This document shows, in pieces, positions 422 to 49,400 of a stretch of 64,000 nucleotides of DNA (its first letter is position 1; every line of letters starts with the position of its first letter). The position numbers and the translations under genes are program-made. The notes below the pieces were generated by a model. That model searched no databases. It was given only the letters and a program-made list of their open reading frames with translations, and was not told where the DNA came from. Location of the stretch: contig NZ_CALNWY010000010.1 of assembly GCF_940807255.1 (NCBI RefSeq), forward strand, positions 62,001-126,000, read 5' to 3'. Origin of the DNA: Mixta sp. Marseille-Q2659. GTDB taxonomy: Bacteria > Pseudomonadota > Gammaproteobacteria > Enterobacterales > Enterobacteriaceae.

Positions 422-562
422 GTTAGTCCTCTTTAACGCGGCTGGCAGCGCGTCGAGAAATTGAATCTTTATTGTGAATCGGCAATCAGCATAGCCGACA
501 TTTAGGTTTTCGCTACAGTAACGGAATGATGAGACAGACAGGATGCAATACACCCTTCAGAC

Positions 563-654
563 GAAAAAAAACCTCTGAAGGTGGAAATCCGAGTTAAACA
601 CCTTCAGAGGCGACGCAAATGCATCATTCGTTACAGAGCTTTATTTAGCTCAGG
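563..654 (-). ncRNA. Candidate small RNA with intrinsic terminator
   Basis: On the minus strand a sigma-70-like promoter is followed by a short transcript-sized unit of about 90 nt. Its 5' part forms a hairpin, GAGCT (651-647) with AGCTC (640-636); an unpaired middle follows; its 3' part is a 12-bp perfect stem (610-599 with 583-572, CCTCTGAAGGTG/CACCTTCAGAGG) followed by eight T residues (570-563). This is the classical layout of an Hfq-type small RNA gene. It could instead be a leader or attenuator for the YmgB-like gene 140 nt downstream; a third copy of the stem sequence (TCTGAAGGGTG, 561-551) could pair with the second terminator arm. I recognise no known small RNA in it. Nothing here proves transcription. 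Confidence 0.5.
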
Positions 655-660
655 GGTAAA

Positions 661-688
661 GTTATACAAAAAAAGTAAAACTGTACAA
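661..688 (-). promoter_or_regulatory. Candidate sigma-70 promoter for the small RNA
   Basis: On the minus strand TTGTAC (688-683) and TATAAC (666-661) are 16 bp apart, placing a start near 654. The same stretch carries the related octamers TTATACAA (662-669 and 696-703) and CTGTACAA (681-688), so it may also be an operator region. Confidence 0.4.
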
Positions 689-1026
689 ACAATGCTTATA
701 CAATTTGTGCTAAATGTTAATTATCAGTTAGTTGTATGGGGGGGTAATAATAAAAAAGCTATACAAACCTGCCGTGAAAACGTTTGGCTTGTAACATTTG
801 CGAAAAAATAGCCCTCTGTCAGCGCATTTTTAGCCTCAATTGAGAATAATCCCAATATAATTAGGGTTAAGCTTGCGCCCAACGGATAAACCAGGAAGGT
901 TGAATGAGCGATGGCAAAGCGGAAAGGGAAAACAACCTGCGGTTAATCGAAATAATGCGATCGTCGGCTTGTCCGTTTATTAAAGAATAATGTCATTTTT
1001 TGCACAAGAATGGAGTGGCTGCTTGC

Positions 1027-1097: not shown

Positions 1098-1526
1098 ATG
1101 GATTCCCATCAGCGTTTTTCTCGTTTACTGCATCTCACTGCACACGCCTGGCGGCTGGCTATCGATCGTCGCCTGAAGGATAGCGGGCTCAGCATGAACA
1201 GCTGGCTGGCCATTGCCACGTTGGCAAGCGAAAGTGAACCTATGACGCAAAAAGCGCTGGCGCAGGTGCTGGGGCTGGAAGAAGCCAGCGTGGTGCCGCT
1301 AATTGATCGACTGGTAGCACAGCAGCTTATTGAACGTCAGCAGCCGGAAGAGGATCGACGTAAGCGTCTGCTGCTGGTCACCCGGCAGGGCTCGGCGGTC
1401 TTTGAAAAAGTGAAAATTGAGGCGGATCGGCTGCGCGGCGAACTGTTAGCCGATATTGACCCGCGCGATCTGACCGTGGCGCATCGGGTGTTGCAACAGT
1501 TGCTGCATAAAACGGAAAGGCTCTGA
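1098..1526 (+). CDS. MarR-family transcriptional regulator of the adjacent efflux pump
   Basis: A 142-residue protein with the MarR winged helix-turn-helix fold: N-terminal helix with LLHLTAHAWRLAIDRRL, recognition region around residues 50-75 (TQKALAQVLG...SVVPLIDRL) and a wing with the typical DRRKR...LLVT pattern near residues 86-95. Start at 1098 is favoured because homology begins there; the longer reading adds 36 residues of promoter-like sequence. Its stop is followed one base later by the pump gene, so the four genes form one operon. MarR members usually repress such operons and are released by phenolic or aromatic ligands; that mode of control and the ligand are inference here. Confidence 0.88.
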   Translation: MDSHQRFSRLLHLTAHAWRLAIDRRLKDSGLSMNSWLAIATLASESEPMTQKALAQVLGLEEASVVPLIDRLVAQQLIERQQPEEDRRKRLLLVTRQGSAVFEKVKIEADRLRGELLADIDPRDLTVAHRVLQQLLHKTERL

Positions 1527-1527
1527 C

Positions 1528-3213
1528 GTGGCGAAATCGAATCCTTATGCACCGCGCCAGTGGCAGCCGCATGAAAAACCCATGCTGCCTGGTTCGCCTT
1601 CCACGCCGATTCATCCCACCAAAAAGCGTATCGCTTTTGGCCTGGTCGGTCTGTTAATTACGTTGACCGGTGCGCTCAGCAATGCGCTGGTAACGGCTAA
1701 CCTGACTAATTTACAGGGCACCTTTGGCGCCTATACCAATGAGATCGCCTGGCTACCGGCGGTTTACGTGATGGGAAATATTTCTATTAACCTGCTGCTG
1801 GTGAAGTTTCGCCAGCAGTTTGGCCTGCGTATCTTTACCGAAGCCTTTTTACTGCTCTATGTGCTGGTGGCCTTTTTCCATCTGTTCGTTAACGATCTCA
1901 GCTCGGCAATTATTGTCCGTACCGCGCATGGCATGGTAGCGGCGGCGCTCAGCTCACTGGGCATTTACTACCAGATACAGGCCTGGCCCGCTAAACATCG
2001 CCTGAAAGCGCTGGCGATCGGCATCAGCGCCTCCCAGTTGGCGATCCCGCTGGCGCGCCTGTTCTCTTCCGAGTTGTTGCAGCTGGAAGAGTGGCGCGGG
2101 CTTTATCTGTTTGAACTGGGGCTGGCGCTGGTGGCGCTGGGCTGCGTATTTATGCTGAAGCTGCCGCCCAGCGATCGCAGCAAAGTCTTCGAGAAAATGG
2201 ACTTCGTCACCTTTATGCTGATGGCGCCAGGCATGGCGCTGCTGTGCGGCGTACTGTCGCTGGGACGAATTGAATGGTGGTTCACAACGCCCTGGCTTGG
2301 CATCTGTCTGGCCCTGGCGTTGGCGCTGATTGTCAGCGCAGTGGTGGTGGAGCATAACCGCAAAAATCCGCTAATTAATACGCGCTGGCTTGGCAGTGGC
2401 GCGATTATCCGGCTGGGCATTGTGATGATTATGATGCGCATCGTGCTGGCGGAGCAGAACAGCGGCGCCATCGGCTTTTTGCAGCAGGTCGGCCTGCTTA
2501 ACGATCAGATGCGCGGCCTCGCGCTGGCGATTATTGCTGGCGTGCTGCTGGGCATTACCGCCAGCGCCCTGACGCTGAAGCCCGCCCATCTTAGCTGGCC
2601 CATCGTAACCTCACTGCTGATTATGATGGTCGCCTCGCTGATGGACGCGCACGCCAGCCCGGTAACGCGCCCGCACAACATGTATTTCAGCCAGTTTCTG
2701 CTCGGCTTCAGCAGCGCCTTCTTTCTGGCGCCCGCCATGCTGCTGGGCATCGGCAGCGTGGTTACGCAGCCAAAAAACCTGGTGAGCTTTGTGGTGCTGT
2801 TTGGCATGAGCCAGAATTTAGGCGGTCTTATCGGCTCGGCCATTCTTGGCACCTTTCAGATCTGGCGTGAAAAATATCACTCCAGCCTGTTGGGCGATCA
2901 GCTCTCACTGCTCGATCCGAGCGTAACCGAACGCCTTAGCCAGTACAGCGCGCTGTTCAGCAGTCAGCTGGGCGACAGCACCTTACTGAGCGCCCAGGCG
3001 ACCACACAGCTGCAAACCGTTGCCACTTTGCAGGCCAACGTACTGGCGTGGAACGATACCTATTTACTTACCGCCGGACTGGCGTTCTCCACGCTGGTAT
3101 GGGTGCTGTATCGTCTGACGCGCCAGCGCATCACTCTTCGACGCCAGCAGCAGCGTGACGCTGCTGCTGCCCAAACGATTCCGGCAACATCAGCAAGCAT
3201 GGAGAAACAATGA
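1528..3213 (+). CDS. MFS efflux pump, DHA2 (EmrB-like) family
   Basis: A 561-residue inner-membrane protein with about 14 hydrophobic segments, the size and layout of the 14-TM DHA2 proton-driven drug exporters. It opens with a short cytoplasmic tail followed by a first membrane segment near residues 33-60. The start is GTG at 1528, one base after the marR stop, with AAGG upstream. It overlaps the adaptor gene by an ATGA, implying coupled translation. With the adaptor and the outer-membrane lipoprotein it should form a pump spanning both membranes, similar in plan to EmrAB-TolC but with its own outer-membrane factor. The substrate cannot be told from sequence. Confidence 0.85.
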   Translation: MAKSNPYAPRQWQPHEKPMLPGSPSTPIHPTKKRIAFGLVGLLITLTGALSNALVTANLTNLQGTFGAYTNEIAWLPAVYVMGNISINLLLVKFRQQFGLRIFTEAFLLLYVLVAFFHLFVNDLSSAIIVRTAHGMVAAALSSLGIYYQIQAWPAKHRLKALAIGISASQLAIPLARLFSSELLQLEEWRGLYLFELGLALVALGCVFMLKLPPSDRSKVFEKMDFVTFMLMAPGMALLCGVLSLGRIEWWFTTPWLGICLALALALIVSAVVVEHNRKNPLINTRWLGSGAIIRLGIVMIMMRIVLAEQNSGAIGFLQQVGLLNDQMRGLALAIIAGVLLGITASALTLKPAHLSWPIVTSLLIMMVASLMDAHASPVTRPHNMYFSQFLLGFSSAFFLAPAMLLGIGSVVTQPKNLVSFVVLFGMSQNLGGLIGSAILGTFQIWREKYHSSLLGDQLSLLDPSVTERLSQYSALFSSQLGDSTLLSAQATTQLQTVATLQANVLAWNDTYLLTAGLAFSTLVWVLYRLTRQRITLRRQQQRDAAAAQTIPATSASMEKQ

Positions 3214-4301
3214 GCCAGCAGGAAGAAGTTAAAGCCGCCGAGCGCGAGCGCAATAACAAATTACGCATTCTCTCTGTCGCCGTCGGCAGCGGCATTGTCA
3301 TTGTCGGCGTGTTGGTGATCCTTTACGCCTGGCAGCTCTGGCCGTTCACCAGCGCGGTGCAAAGTACGGAAAACGCCTACGTGCGCGGCCAGGTCACCTT
3401 TATCAGTCCGCAGGTCAGCGGCTATATCACGGCGGTCAACGTGCAGGATTTACAGCCGGTGCATAAGGGCGACGTGTTGATGACCATTGACGACCGTATT
3501 TACCGTCAGCGCGTTGAGCAGGCGAAAGCGCAGCTGGCGATGAAACAGGCGGCGTTAGCCAATAACCAGCAGCAGCGGCGCAGCGCGGAGGCGGTCATTG
3601 CGCGCAATCAGGCCGCGCTGGAGAACAGCAAAGCGCAGGCGGCCAAAAGCGGCTTCGATTTAAAACGCGTGGAAAATCTGGTGGCGGATGGTTCGTTATC
3701 GATCCGCGAACGCGATGCGGCGCGCGCCGCTAACAGCCAGGCGGTGACGGCGATACAGCAGGCCAAAGCCACGCTTGATGTATCGCGTCAGGATTTGCAG
3801 ACGGTAATTGTTAACCGCGCCTCGCTGGAGGCGGACGTCACCAATGCCGAGGCGGCCCTGAAGCTGGCGCAAATCGATTTAGACAACACGCGCATTATCG
3901 CACCGGAGGATGGACAGCTGGGGCAGATTTCGGTGCGGCGCGGCGGCTATGTTTCGGCAGGTACGCGGCTGACGTCGCTGGTACCGGGACAAAAATGGGT
4001 GATCGCCAATATGAAAGAGACGCAGATGGCGGATGTGCGTCCCGGTCTGCCGGTCACCTTCAGCGTGGATGCGCTGAACGGCGCTATTTTCCACGGCGTG
4101 GTTGAATATATCTCGCCGGCAGCTGCTTCGGAGTTCAGCGCCATTTCACCCGATAACGCTACCGGCAACTTCGTTAAGATCGCCCAGCGTATTCCGGTGC
4201 GTATCAAAATTACCGATGATGCTCAGGCGCGCCTGCGTCCCGGCATGTCGGTGGAAGTGAATATCGATACCGCCGCCCAGCCTGCGGAGCCGCAGTCATG
4301 A
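3210..4301 (+). CDS. HlyD/EmrA-family periplasmic adaptor (membrane fusion protein)
   Basis: A 363-residue adaptor with one N-terminal membrane anchor (about residues 22-44), the ENAYVRG motif typical of EmrA-like adaptors, a split lipoyl/biotinyl-like domain (VSGYI...KGDVL near residue 65-90 and IIAPEDGQLG near 230), a long coiled-coil hairpin between them rich in Ala, Gln and Lys, and a beta-barrel C-terminal region (IAQRIPVRIKI). GGAGAAAC precedes its ATG. It overlaps both neighbours by ATGA. It should link the MFS pump to the outer-membrane factor. Family assignment is firm; substrate unknown. Confidence 0.88.
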   Translation: MSQQEEVKAAERERNNKLRILSVAVGSGIVIVGVLVILYAWQLWPFTSAVQSTENAYVRGQVTFISPQVSGYITAVNVQDLQPVHKGDVLMTIDDRIYRQRVEQAKAQLAMKQAALANNQQQRRSAEAVIARNQAALENSKAQAAKSGFDLKRVENLVADGSLSIRERDAARAANSQAVTAIQQAKATLDVSRQDLQTVIVNRASLEADVTNAEAALKLAQIDLDNTRIIAPEDGQLGQISVRRGGYVSAGTRLTSLVPGQKWVIANMKETQMADVRPGLPVTFSVDALNGAIFHGVVEYISPAAASEFSAISPDNATGNFVKIAQRIPVRIKITDDAQARLRPGMSVEVNIDTAAQPAEPQS

Positions 4302-5674
4302 TGCGCGCAAAACCGCTGGTGCTGGCGCTGCTGATCCCGCTGCTGTCTGGCTGCGCTACCGAGGTAGAAAAGGCGCCGACCGCGTTACCGATACCACAGG
4401 CGTGGCGTCAACAGGTTGGGCCGTCCGCCGCGCCGGAAGCGAACTGGTGGCGCGCCTTTGCCGATGCGGATTTAAATCGGCTGGTGGAACAGGCGCTGCG
4501 TAATAACCCTGATATTCTTACTGCCCGCTCGCGCGTCGATCAATATCGCGCGCAGCTGCGCGCCGCCGCTGGTGATAATTTCCCGACGCTGGACGCGGGC
4601 GTTGGTGTAACCCGTGCCCGTACGCTATCGGCAGCGACCGGCGTGCCGCACGACGGCAATGTCTATCAGGGGCTGCTGCAGGCCAATTATGATGTGGATT
4701 TATGGGGATCGCGCAGCAGCAGCATCGATGCGGCGCGCGCGTCGCTGGCGGCGCAACAGGCTGCGGCAGCGGCGGCTGAGCTGACTATCGCCACCTCGGT
4801 GGCCTCCGGCTATATGACGTTGCTGGCGCTGGATGAACAGCTGCGCGTCACTCAGGCGACGCTGGCAACGCGCGAGAATTCACTGAAGCTGGCGCAGCGC
4901 CAGTTCGAGGCGGGTTACACCTCGCGTCTGGAGTGGATGCAGGCCGCCTCGGAATATCAGGCGGCGAAAGCGCAGATCCCACAGCTGTCGCATCAGATTA
5001 CGCAGCAGGAGAATGCGCTCAGTATCCTGGTCGGGATGAACCCGCGCCATATTGCCCGTCAGTCGCGCTTTGCCCAGGTGATGCCGCAGCGGCTGCCATC
5101 GCTGTTGCCGTCGGAGCTGTTGCAGCGGCGACCGGATATCATTCAGGCTCAGCGCCTGCTGCTGGCGGCAGATAATTCACTGGCTTCCTCGCAGGCGCAG
5201 CTGCTGCCTTCGCTGAACCTGACCGCTTCCGGCACGTTGCAATCATCGGTGCTGCATCAGCTGGTGGATAATCCTTTTCGGCTGTGGAGCATCGGCGGCA
5301 GCGTACTGGCGCCGCTGTTAAACCGCGAGGCGCTGACGGCGCAGGTTGACGTTTCAATGGCCTCGCGCAATCAGGCGCTCTACAGCTATGAAAAAGTGGT
5401 GCGCAACGCCTTTAGCGAAGTCAACGATGCGCTGGACGCTATACAGCAGACCCAGGCGCAGTTACAGGAAGTTGAGAAGCAGCAGGAGATTGCCGCCGAT
5501 ACCTTGCGTATCGCCCGTAACCGCTATCAGAACGGCTATGCCTCCTATCTTGATGAGCTGGATGCGCAGCGCACGCTGTTTAGTGCGCAGCTGAATGTGG
5601 TGCAACTGAAAAATAACTTGATCCAGGCGCAGATCGACCTTTATCGTGCGCTTGGCGGCGGCTGGCAGCCTTAA
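4298..5674 (+). CDS. Outer-membrane efflux lipoprotein, NodT family
   Basis: A 458-residue TolC-like outer-membrane factor. The signal peptide ends in the lipobox LLSGC, so Cys19 is the likely lipidation site. Two repeated OEP-type halves are visible, including the W-x-x-F-D/A-D...L-x-x-L-V-x-x-A-L-x-x-N-P signature near residues 48-75 and RRPDI-x-Q-A near residue 278. It begins inside the adaptor stop codon and closes the operon. It should form the trimeric exit duct for the pump. No intrinsic terminator is evident directly after it. Confidence 0.88.
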   Translation: MMRAKPLVLALLIPLLSGCATEVEKAPTALPIPQAWRQQVGPSAAPEANWWRAFADADLNRLVEQALRNNPDILTARSRVDQYRAQLRAAAGDNFPTLDAGVGVTRARTLSAATGVPHDGNVYQGLLQANYDVDLWGSRSSSIDAARASLAAQQAAAAAAELTIATSVASGYMTLLALDEQLRVTQATLATRENSLKLAQRQFEAGYTSRLEWMQAASEYQAAKAQIPQLSHQITQQENALSILVGMNPRHIARQSRFAQVMPQRLPSLLPSELLQRRPDIIQAQRLLLAADNSLASSQAQLLPSLNLTASGTLQSSVLHQLVDNPFRLWSIGGSVLAPLLNREALTAQVDVSMASRNQALYSYEKVVRNAFSEVNDALDAIQQTQAQLQEVEKQQEIAADTLRIARNRYQNGYASYLDELDAQRTLFSAQLNVVQLKNNLIQAQIDLYRALGGGWQP

Positions 5675-49017: not shown

Positions 49018-49084
49018 CGTAACGTACTCGTTATTCTTACGTGAGTGACTAAGCTGCGGGCTAAGTAACACTGGACGAAGAATA

Positions 49085-49186
49085 ACCGACGGCCCCGTGT
49101 CTTATCGCTACATCGTCAACCTCACGGTTGTCGGTCGCTCAAGGGGCGCAAAAATCTCGGCAGCCTGTTTTTATAAGGAAAAACAG
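49085..49186 (-). promoter_or_regulatory. Structured rne 5' leader (autoregulatory element)
   Basis: In E. coli the long rne 5' UTR (Rfam rne5) holds hairpins through which RNase E degrades its own mRNA. Here CTGTTTTT/AAAAACAG (49165-49186) forms one hairpin and ACCGAC/GTCGGT (49085-49090 with 49130-49135) encloses CAACC-TCAC-GGTTG (49117-49130) to form another, at comparable distances from the start codon. Confidence 0.6.
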
Positions 49187-49400
49187 CGCTCGGATGAGGG
49201 AACCGCCACTGAATTTACCAGAGAGAGTCAATCCCGTCTTATCGTCCAGGCTGCAACCCGCAGCCCGCTAAATGCCTGATTTCACAATACGTCTTACGCC
49301 ATTGCTGCGTGTATGTGCTATCCGGCAAAATTTCTTAATTCGCTATTTATGGTTTCCTGACGGTAAGGGCTCAGGAGACCGGGTCATTATTCCATTGCTA

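Follow-up and report, generated by a model that had tools for sequence, protein, structure and literature searches.

Organization of the locus

The window (the whole stretch of 64,000 nucleotides of Mixta DNA that was analysed) carries a gene for a biofilm protein of the YmgB/AriR family on its minus strand and, ahead of it, the elements of a putative small RNA gene (Table 1). Read from position 703 down to 564, these follow one another on the minus strand in the order promoter, 5' hairpin, open word, second hairpin and terminator. An earlier reading, made from the sequence alone, had described a promoter-like pair, a 5' hairpin, a single-stranded stretch and a perfect 12-bp terminator stem with eight T, and all of these are borne out: the stem arms (572-583 and 599-610) form a perfect 12 bp plus one G.U pair, and the eight T occupy 564-571. 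The same reading had placed the terminator about 140 nt ahead of the ymgB-like start; the distance from the T-run to the start of the YmgB ORF (421) was measured at ~143 nt. The 5' end of the predicted RNA is inferred, having been set 7 nt past the -10 element.

The fold energy of the RNA is -35.8 kcal/mol, compared to a mean of -18.4 kcal/mol for 200 dinucleotide shuffles (z -5.06), none of which equalled it. A scan for simple consensus motifs missed both promoter and terminator, in our reading because the -10 element ends in C and the terminator loop is 15 nt long, which places them outside the rules of the scan. Divergent from the RNA, window positions 1098-5674 encode a MarR regulator, an MFS transporter and an HlyD-type protein (all by Pfam); the next ORF after the HlyD-type gene resembles, by eye, an outer-membrane factor, the whole being an EmrAB-type efflux operon.

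Table 1. Features of the putative small RNA locus (positions are those of the window).
Feature	Position	Strand	Basis
Predicted small RNA, ~91 nt	564..654	-	sequence; fold z -5.06; family-model match 1.2e-18 at the locus
-35 element TTGTAC	683-688	-	sequence
-10 element TATAAC, 16-nt spacer from the -35	661-666	-	sequence
Promoter with BluR/MlrA-type inverted repeat TTTGTACAG-N11-TTGTATAACTT, covering -35 and -10	659..689	-	motif search
Upstream word ATTTAGCACAAATTG	701..715	-	sequence
5' hairpin, sequence variable among copies	636..651	-	fold and comparison of copies
Word 1, TGTAACGAAT, single-stranded, complementary to rpoS leader ATTCGTTACA	626..635	-	sequence match
Second hairpin GATGCATTTGCGTC	612..625	-	covariation helix 1: 2/5 pairs with two-sided change
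Intrinsic terminator, 12-bp stem plus G.U, 15-nt loop, U8	564..611	-	covariation helix 2: 10/13 pairs with two-sided change
Word 2, CGGATTTCC, in terminator loop, complementary to rpoS leader GGAAATCCG	583..591	-	sequence match
Third copy of the stem word, CTGAAGG, found in Mixta loci	554..560	-	sequence
Stretch of the ymgB leader nearly complementary to word 1 and the start of hairpin 2 (CATCATTCCGTTAC)	518..531	-	sequence; pairing shuffles
YmgB/AriR-family gene, 86 aa	161..421	-	Pfam PF10798, E 2.7e-26

A structured RNA family

A search with the 153-nt stretch matched nine of 60 genomes – all eight Mixta genomes (that of the window included) and G027, from another genus – and also turned up diverged second copies. 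A covariance model built from 12 copies found matches in 50 of the 392 genomes of the GTDB family examined, spread over 22 of 154 genera and reaching up to four copies per genome; with a wider model (36 copies) each of the eight Mixta genomes yielded two or three. In an order-level sample six of 394 genomes matched, every one of them within the same GTDB family. Both the family-level and the order-level counts are lower bounds, given the strict filters applied. A 22-base pattern extracted 51 stretches from named contigs, most of them labelled Pantoea; one pattern match (L145), in a Lachnospiraceae bin, is probably due to chance.

Across 36 aligned copies, of which 32 are distinct, pairing is seen in 97.5% of cells, and 12 of the 18 base pairs change on both sides. 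None of 500 shuffles reached any of these measures, and slid versions of the alignment paired at 33.5-46.8%. Fitting the alignment to the model biases it towards the structure, and the 5' hairpin was left outside the model. Together with presence in all eight Mixta genomes, this covariation supports the suggestion of an unannotated small RNA ahead of a YmgB/AriR-like gene: conservation of the hairpins in relatives, which the sequence-only reading had named as a check by covariance search, was found.

No Rfam family is matched at the locus, as that reading had anticipated. The single match at gathering level in the whole 64 kb lies away from it and is rne5, the RNase E 5' UTR element (49042-49372, 214.2 bits). 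Lowering the threshold to E values of up to 10 over positions 450-800 returned snoR110, SCARNA14 and mir-617, which are eukaryotic, fall far under their thresholds and were set aside as chance. A blastn search of the diverged copies L094 and L095 (the window copy excluded) against an E. coli collection gave no match, and a literature search found no published description of the RNA.

Some copies reside on mobile elements. An unannotated copy is found near the lysis genes of Salmonella phage vB_SosS_Oslo (JQ806764; L219 849-918, 59.5 bits, E 1.1e-13), and copies L094 and L101 are also near prophage-type lysis genes. Two Pantoea copies, L220 1498-1569 and L221 1500-1571, are carried by megaplasmids (77.2 and 76.0 bits), and on pPAT9B01 the RNA-ymgB pair adjoins terminase and HNH genes.

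Gene neighbors

Of 51 named loci, 43 have a YmgB-like ORF within 1.3 kb of the RNA, as do 25 of 47 others (the two sets overlap); by our count, 41 and 24 of these ORFs, respectively, follow the RNA directly and in the same orientation. In four loci (L081, L085, L091 and L092) ymgB starts ~20 nt past the T-run, which leaves no room for another promoter between the two. On the facing strand, iraP is found at five loci; neither gene accompanies the RNA at 17 of the 47. The RNA is kept with no ymgB detected in M. theicola L008 and at several other loci. Pfam confirmed the assignments for all five YmgB proteins tried and for the one IraP. The Pantoea plasmid copy in X85 is near two YmgB genes.

In L011 (1564-2040) the second copy in the genome of the window faces a gene for the IraP anti-adaptor (Pfam E 7.6e-24), so that two copies lie beside regulators linked to RpoS or Rcs.

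Promoter and candidate regulator

When up to three mismatches are allowed, the motif RTTRTACAA-N11-TTGTATAASTT precedes 66 of the 92 distinct loci, compared to none of 1960 mononucleotide shuffles; the motif was derived from the very loci in which it was counted. The word TAGCA[C/T] precedes 35 of the 92. Linkage of the RNA to the operator motif and to ymgB is a result of computation. Seven copies (L081, L085, L158, L160-L162 and L164) have TGGT-N-ACCA upstream of the RNA, which is reminiscent of a GntR/FadR-type operator; none of these is of the window type.

A comparable arrangement exists in E. coli, where the BluR-controlled ycgZ-ymgA-ariR operon likewise combines a YmgB/AriR gene with a TGTACA/GTACAA-box promoter and a TAGCAC-AATTG word: the counterpart of the upstream word ATTTAGCACAAATTG ahead of ycgZ is TTAGCACTAATTG. 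No RNA of the new family was found in 8 kb of the E. coli ycgZ region, even with filters off. According to PMC3509220, the MlrA site is AAAGTTGTACA-N12-TGCACAATTTT and the BluR footprint over the ycgZ promoter contains TGTAC...GTACA. A regulator gene of the MlrA/BluR type is present in all eight Mixta genomes (in two pieces in G007). The copy in the genome of the window shares 67% identity with BluR and 56% with MlrA; unlike the E. coli operon, the Mixta system has its regulator gene beside yehW, the position of mlrA in E. coli. Membership of a BluR/MlrA regulon would call for an operator over the promoter and a gene for the regulator: both are in place in the sequence, binding and control being inferred.

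Complementarity to the rpoS leader

Words 1 and 2 are exact complements of adjacent stretches of the rpoS leader in all eight Mixta genomes, the leaders of which contain ATTCGTTACAAGGGGAAATCCG. Each of the eight genomes has the double site, ATTCGTTAC no more than 30 nt from GGAAATCC, a single time and always in the rpoS leader, and a reversed-pattern control gave none. A structured family, two rpoS-complementary words and a single rpoS site per Mixta genome are shown by computation. All 25 further carriers looked at have the rpoS element unaltered, but since it falls within the coding sequence of nlpD, this constancy is weak evidence by itself. The element is the site that DsrA binds; it folds over the region of the rpoS start, and the fold predicted for the Mixta leader has it paired with the Shine-Dalgarno sequence and start codon.

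Net pairing energies (duplex plus opening cost) are -7.1 kcal/mol for word 1 and -5.8 kcal/mol for word 2, compared to -8.6 kcal/mol for E. coli DsrA and its own rpoS leader by the same method. A longer pairing of word 2, extending into the stem, nets only -1.4 kcal/mol: opening costs 13 kcal/mol. Among 1000 shuffled rpoS leaders, two matched word 1, 14 matched word 2 and none matched the sum of both. Over the 68 ORF starts of the window the best value was -22.4 vs -28.6 for rpoS, which ranked best.

Of 50 copies fetched, 41 contain AACGAA, 33 contain GGATTTCC and 38 contain GG[A/G]TTTCC (AACGAA is gone from nine and GG[A/G]TTTCC from 12). Copies L165 and L171 keep neither word, and L166 keeps word 2 only; in four diverged copies GGGTTTCC still pairs, by way of G.U. 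The search models include the words, and these rates of conservation are upper estimates. The two words stand in the opposite order to those of DsrA, and a single continuous duplex is therefore impossible: word 1 may lead with word 2 helping, a pseudoknot may form, or two RNA molecules may take part.

Comparison with RprA and DsrA

RprA (RF00034) has its own separate locus in all eight Mixta genomes (the single G000 match is on a different contig, C35), and its model gives no match at the locus (450-800). The sequence-only reading had noted that the start of the transcript shares only short words, AACGAAT among them, with RprA. The word is part of a complement to the rpoS leader, and E. coli RprA carries it; the Mixta RprA lacks it (that of the genome of the window reads GTGAAGAATTGC). 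What likens the RNA to RprA is this word of the E. coli form together with a role at rpoS. A wide family model run on 16 of 20 RprA loci found nothing better than E 0.21. We also considered a sponge for RprA, prompted by the GGAAATCC that E. coli RprA contains; for Mixta the idea was dropped, the word being absent from the Mixta RprA stretch.

DsrA (RF00014) was not detected in any of the eight Mixta genomes under strict filters, and its model gives no match at the locus (450-800) at E values of up to 10. The two RNAs share the TGTAACGAAT word, a GATTTCC word and the same rpoS leader site, and both comprise a 5' hairpin, a second hairpin and a terminator. They differ in that the words are reversed, GGATTTCC being in the terminator loop of the new RNA and in the 5' hairpin of DsrA, and in that the new RNA is multi-copy, without Rfam match, and located ahead of ymgB or facing iraP, whereas the dsrA gene of E. 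coli is flanked by yodD and yedP. On the present tests the RNA belongs to neither DsrA nor RprA. That Mixta has no detected DsrA, and an RprA without AACGAAT, is consistent with rpoS activation having passed to the new RNA but does not prove it.

Termination and read-through

The sequence-only reading had proposed either a free small RNA or a premature-termination leader, and both seem to hold: the RNA mostly starts the ymgB unit, yet it also occurs with no ymgB detected. In this it resembles small RNAs from premature termination in 5' leaders, being the terminated leader of a coding gene and possibly trans-acting; it differs from them in also standing alone, in multiple copies and on mobile elements.

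In all eight Mixta loci the RNA core can pair, at its start, with the stretch past the terminator; 0-19 of 300 shuffles did as well, compared to 25-299 of 300 for the 11 other loci tried. In the fold, the Mixta leader element pairs with word 1 and the terminator stem stays intact. On this predicted pairing, the element may cover word 1 in read-through RNA, or be a target in trans. The sequence-only reading had further suggested that a third copy of the stem sequence could alter the structure of read-through transcripts. The copy, CTGAAGG, does exist; the switch is not supported outside Mixta, the copy being absent from the five Pantoea leaders examined, and in a fold of the longer leader of the window the terminator stem is intact despite it. 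A role for the copy as antiterminator was accordingly dropped.

Proposed function

The predicted RNA is a conserved one, most likely a DsrA-like regulator of rpoS produced from the ymgB transcription unit. That it activates rpoS, and arises by early termination within the unit, is in our judgement probable; transcription, use of Hfq, activation over repression and control by the Mixta MlrA/BluR-type regulator are inferred. According to this hypothesis, termination ~90 nt into the unit would yield the ~91-nt RNA and read-through would yield ymgB mRNA. By pairing in trans with the leader of rpoS mRNA, the RNA would most likely do as DsrA does: unfold the hairpin that covers the rpoS start and increase synthesis of RpoS. 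With a putative BluR/MlrA-type operator at the promoter of the unit, a single promoter would serve RpoS by way of the RNA and, probably, Rcs by way of YmgB.

The shared layout of hairpin, word, hairpin and terminator raises the question of whether the RNA is a distant DsrA homologue with its second pairing word moved, as opposed to a separate family. When the wide family model was run on ten DsrA loci, the sole match in each of nine was the DsrA gene itself, from TGTAACGAAT to the terminator, and the match lists of the two families have no more than a single genome, G035, in common. However, the DsrA loci score poorly (10.8-19.0 bits, E 0.0073-0.87), the shared word and a terminator accounting for the match, and the gene neighborhoods differ: common descent thus seems rather unlikely. 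Nor do we favor a purely cis-acting attenuator, the terminator of which sets ymgB expression and leaves the short RNA as a by-product without target. The arrangement it needs, a terminator between promoter and gene, is present: the terminator ahead of ymgB is strong and linkage on the same strand is tight (directly downstream in 41 of 51 named loci). Against this, the unpaired words are conserved and match rpoS, no alternative fold common to the family was found in the leaders compared, and there are copies facing iraP or without detectable ymgB (M. theicola L008 and several others), which makes attenuation alone unlikely.

A DsrA-like activator is also to be distinguished from an RNA that pairs with rpoS without activating it (repressing it, or being titrated by rpoS mRNA), or one whose main targets are other mRNAs. 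Complementarity in itself gives no sign of the effect, no genome-wide ranking of targets lies behind the assignment to rpoS, and the order of the words is reversed with respect to DsrA. Yet in the predicted fold it is the bound element that masks the rpoS Shine-Dalgarno sequence and start codon, so that binding should open the fold; we regard these possibilities as quite unlikely.

One published data set speaks against expression of the RNA. If gene order is kept, the two P. ananatis copies are expected at ~1.618 and 1.969 Mb of LMG20103 (positions derived by distance from RprA). Table 3 of PMC6749038, which does not cover the full supplementary list, has no entry there; the table gives selected RNAs only, and the cultures were taken at OD 0.2 and 0.6, so that an RNA repressed in them would also fit.

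A fuller picture, possible rather than probable when all its parts are taken jointly, is that of a multi-copy family, carried in part by prophages and megaplasmids, which constitutes the terminated leader of a YmgB connector under a BluR/MlrA-type promoter and makes two non-collinear contacts with rpoS, one through its own terminator loop (an intermolecular pseudoknot). Such an RNA would stand in for DsrA in Mixta, and read-through would mask the rpoS-pairing word, termination choosing between RpoS and YmgB output.

What is known of RpoS control by DsrA, RprA and ArcZ comes from E. coli. An amplified family of small RNAs, distinct from these and acting on the rpoS leader in Pantoea, Mixta and relatives, would show how enterobacteria other than E. 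coli have rewired RpoS, and one transcript would tie the RpoS stress switch to the BluR-YmgB-Rcs branch. The family, missing from Rfam 15, would also provide a clean test of whether a terminator loop can act as a target-binding site. As to the regulator itself, the gene at L208 1489-2262 holds the mlrA position and is nonetheless nearer BluR, an observation that bears on the proposed history of the BluR/MlrA duplication.
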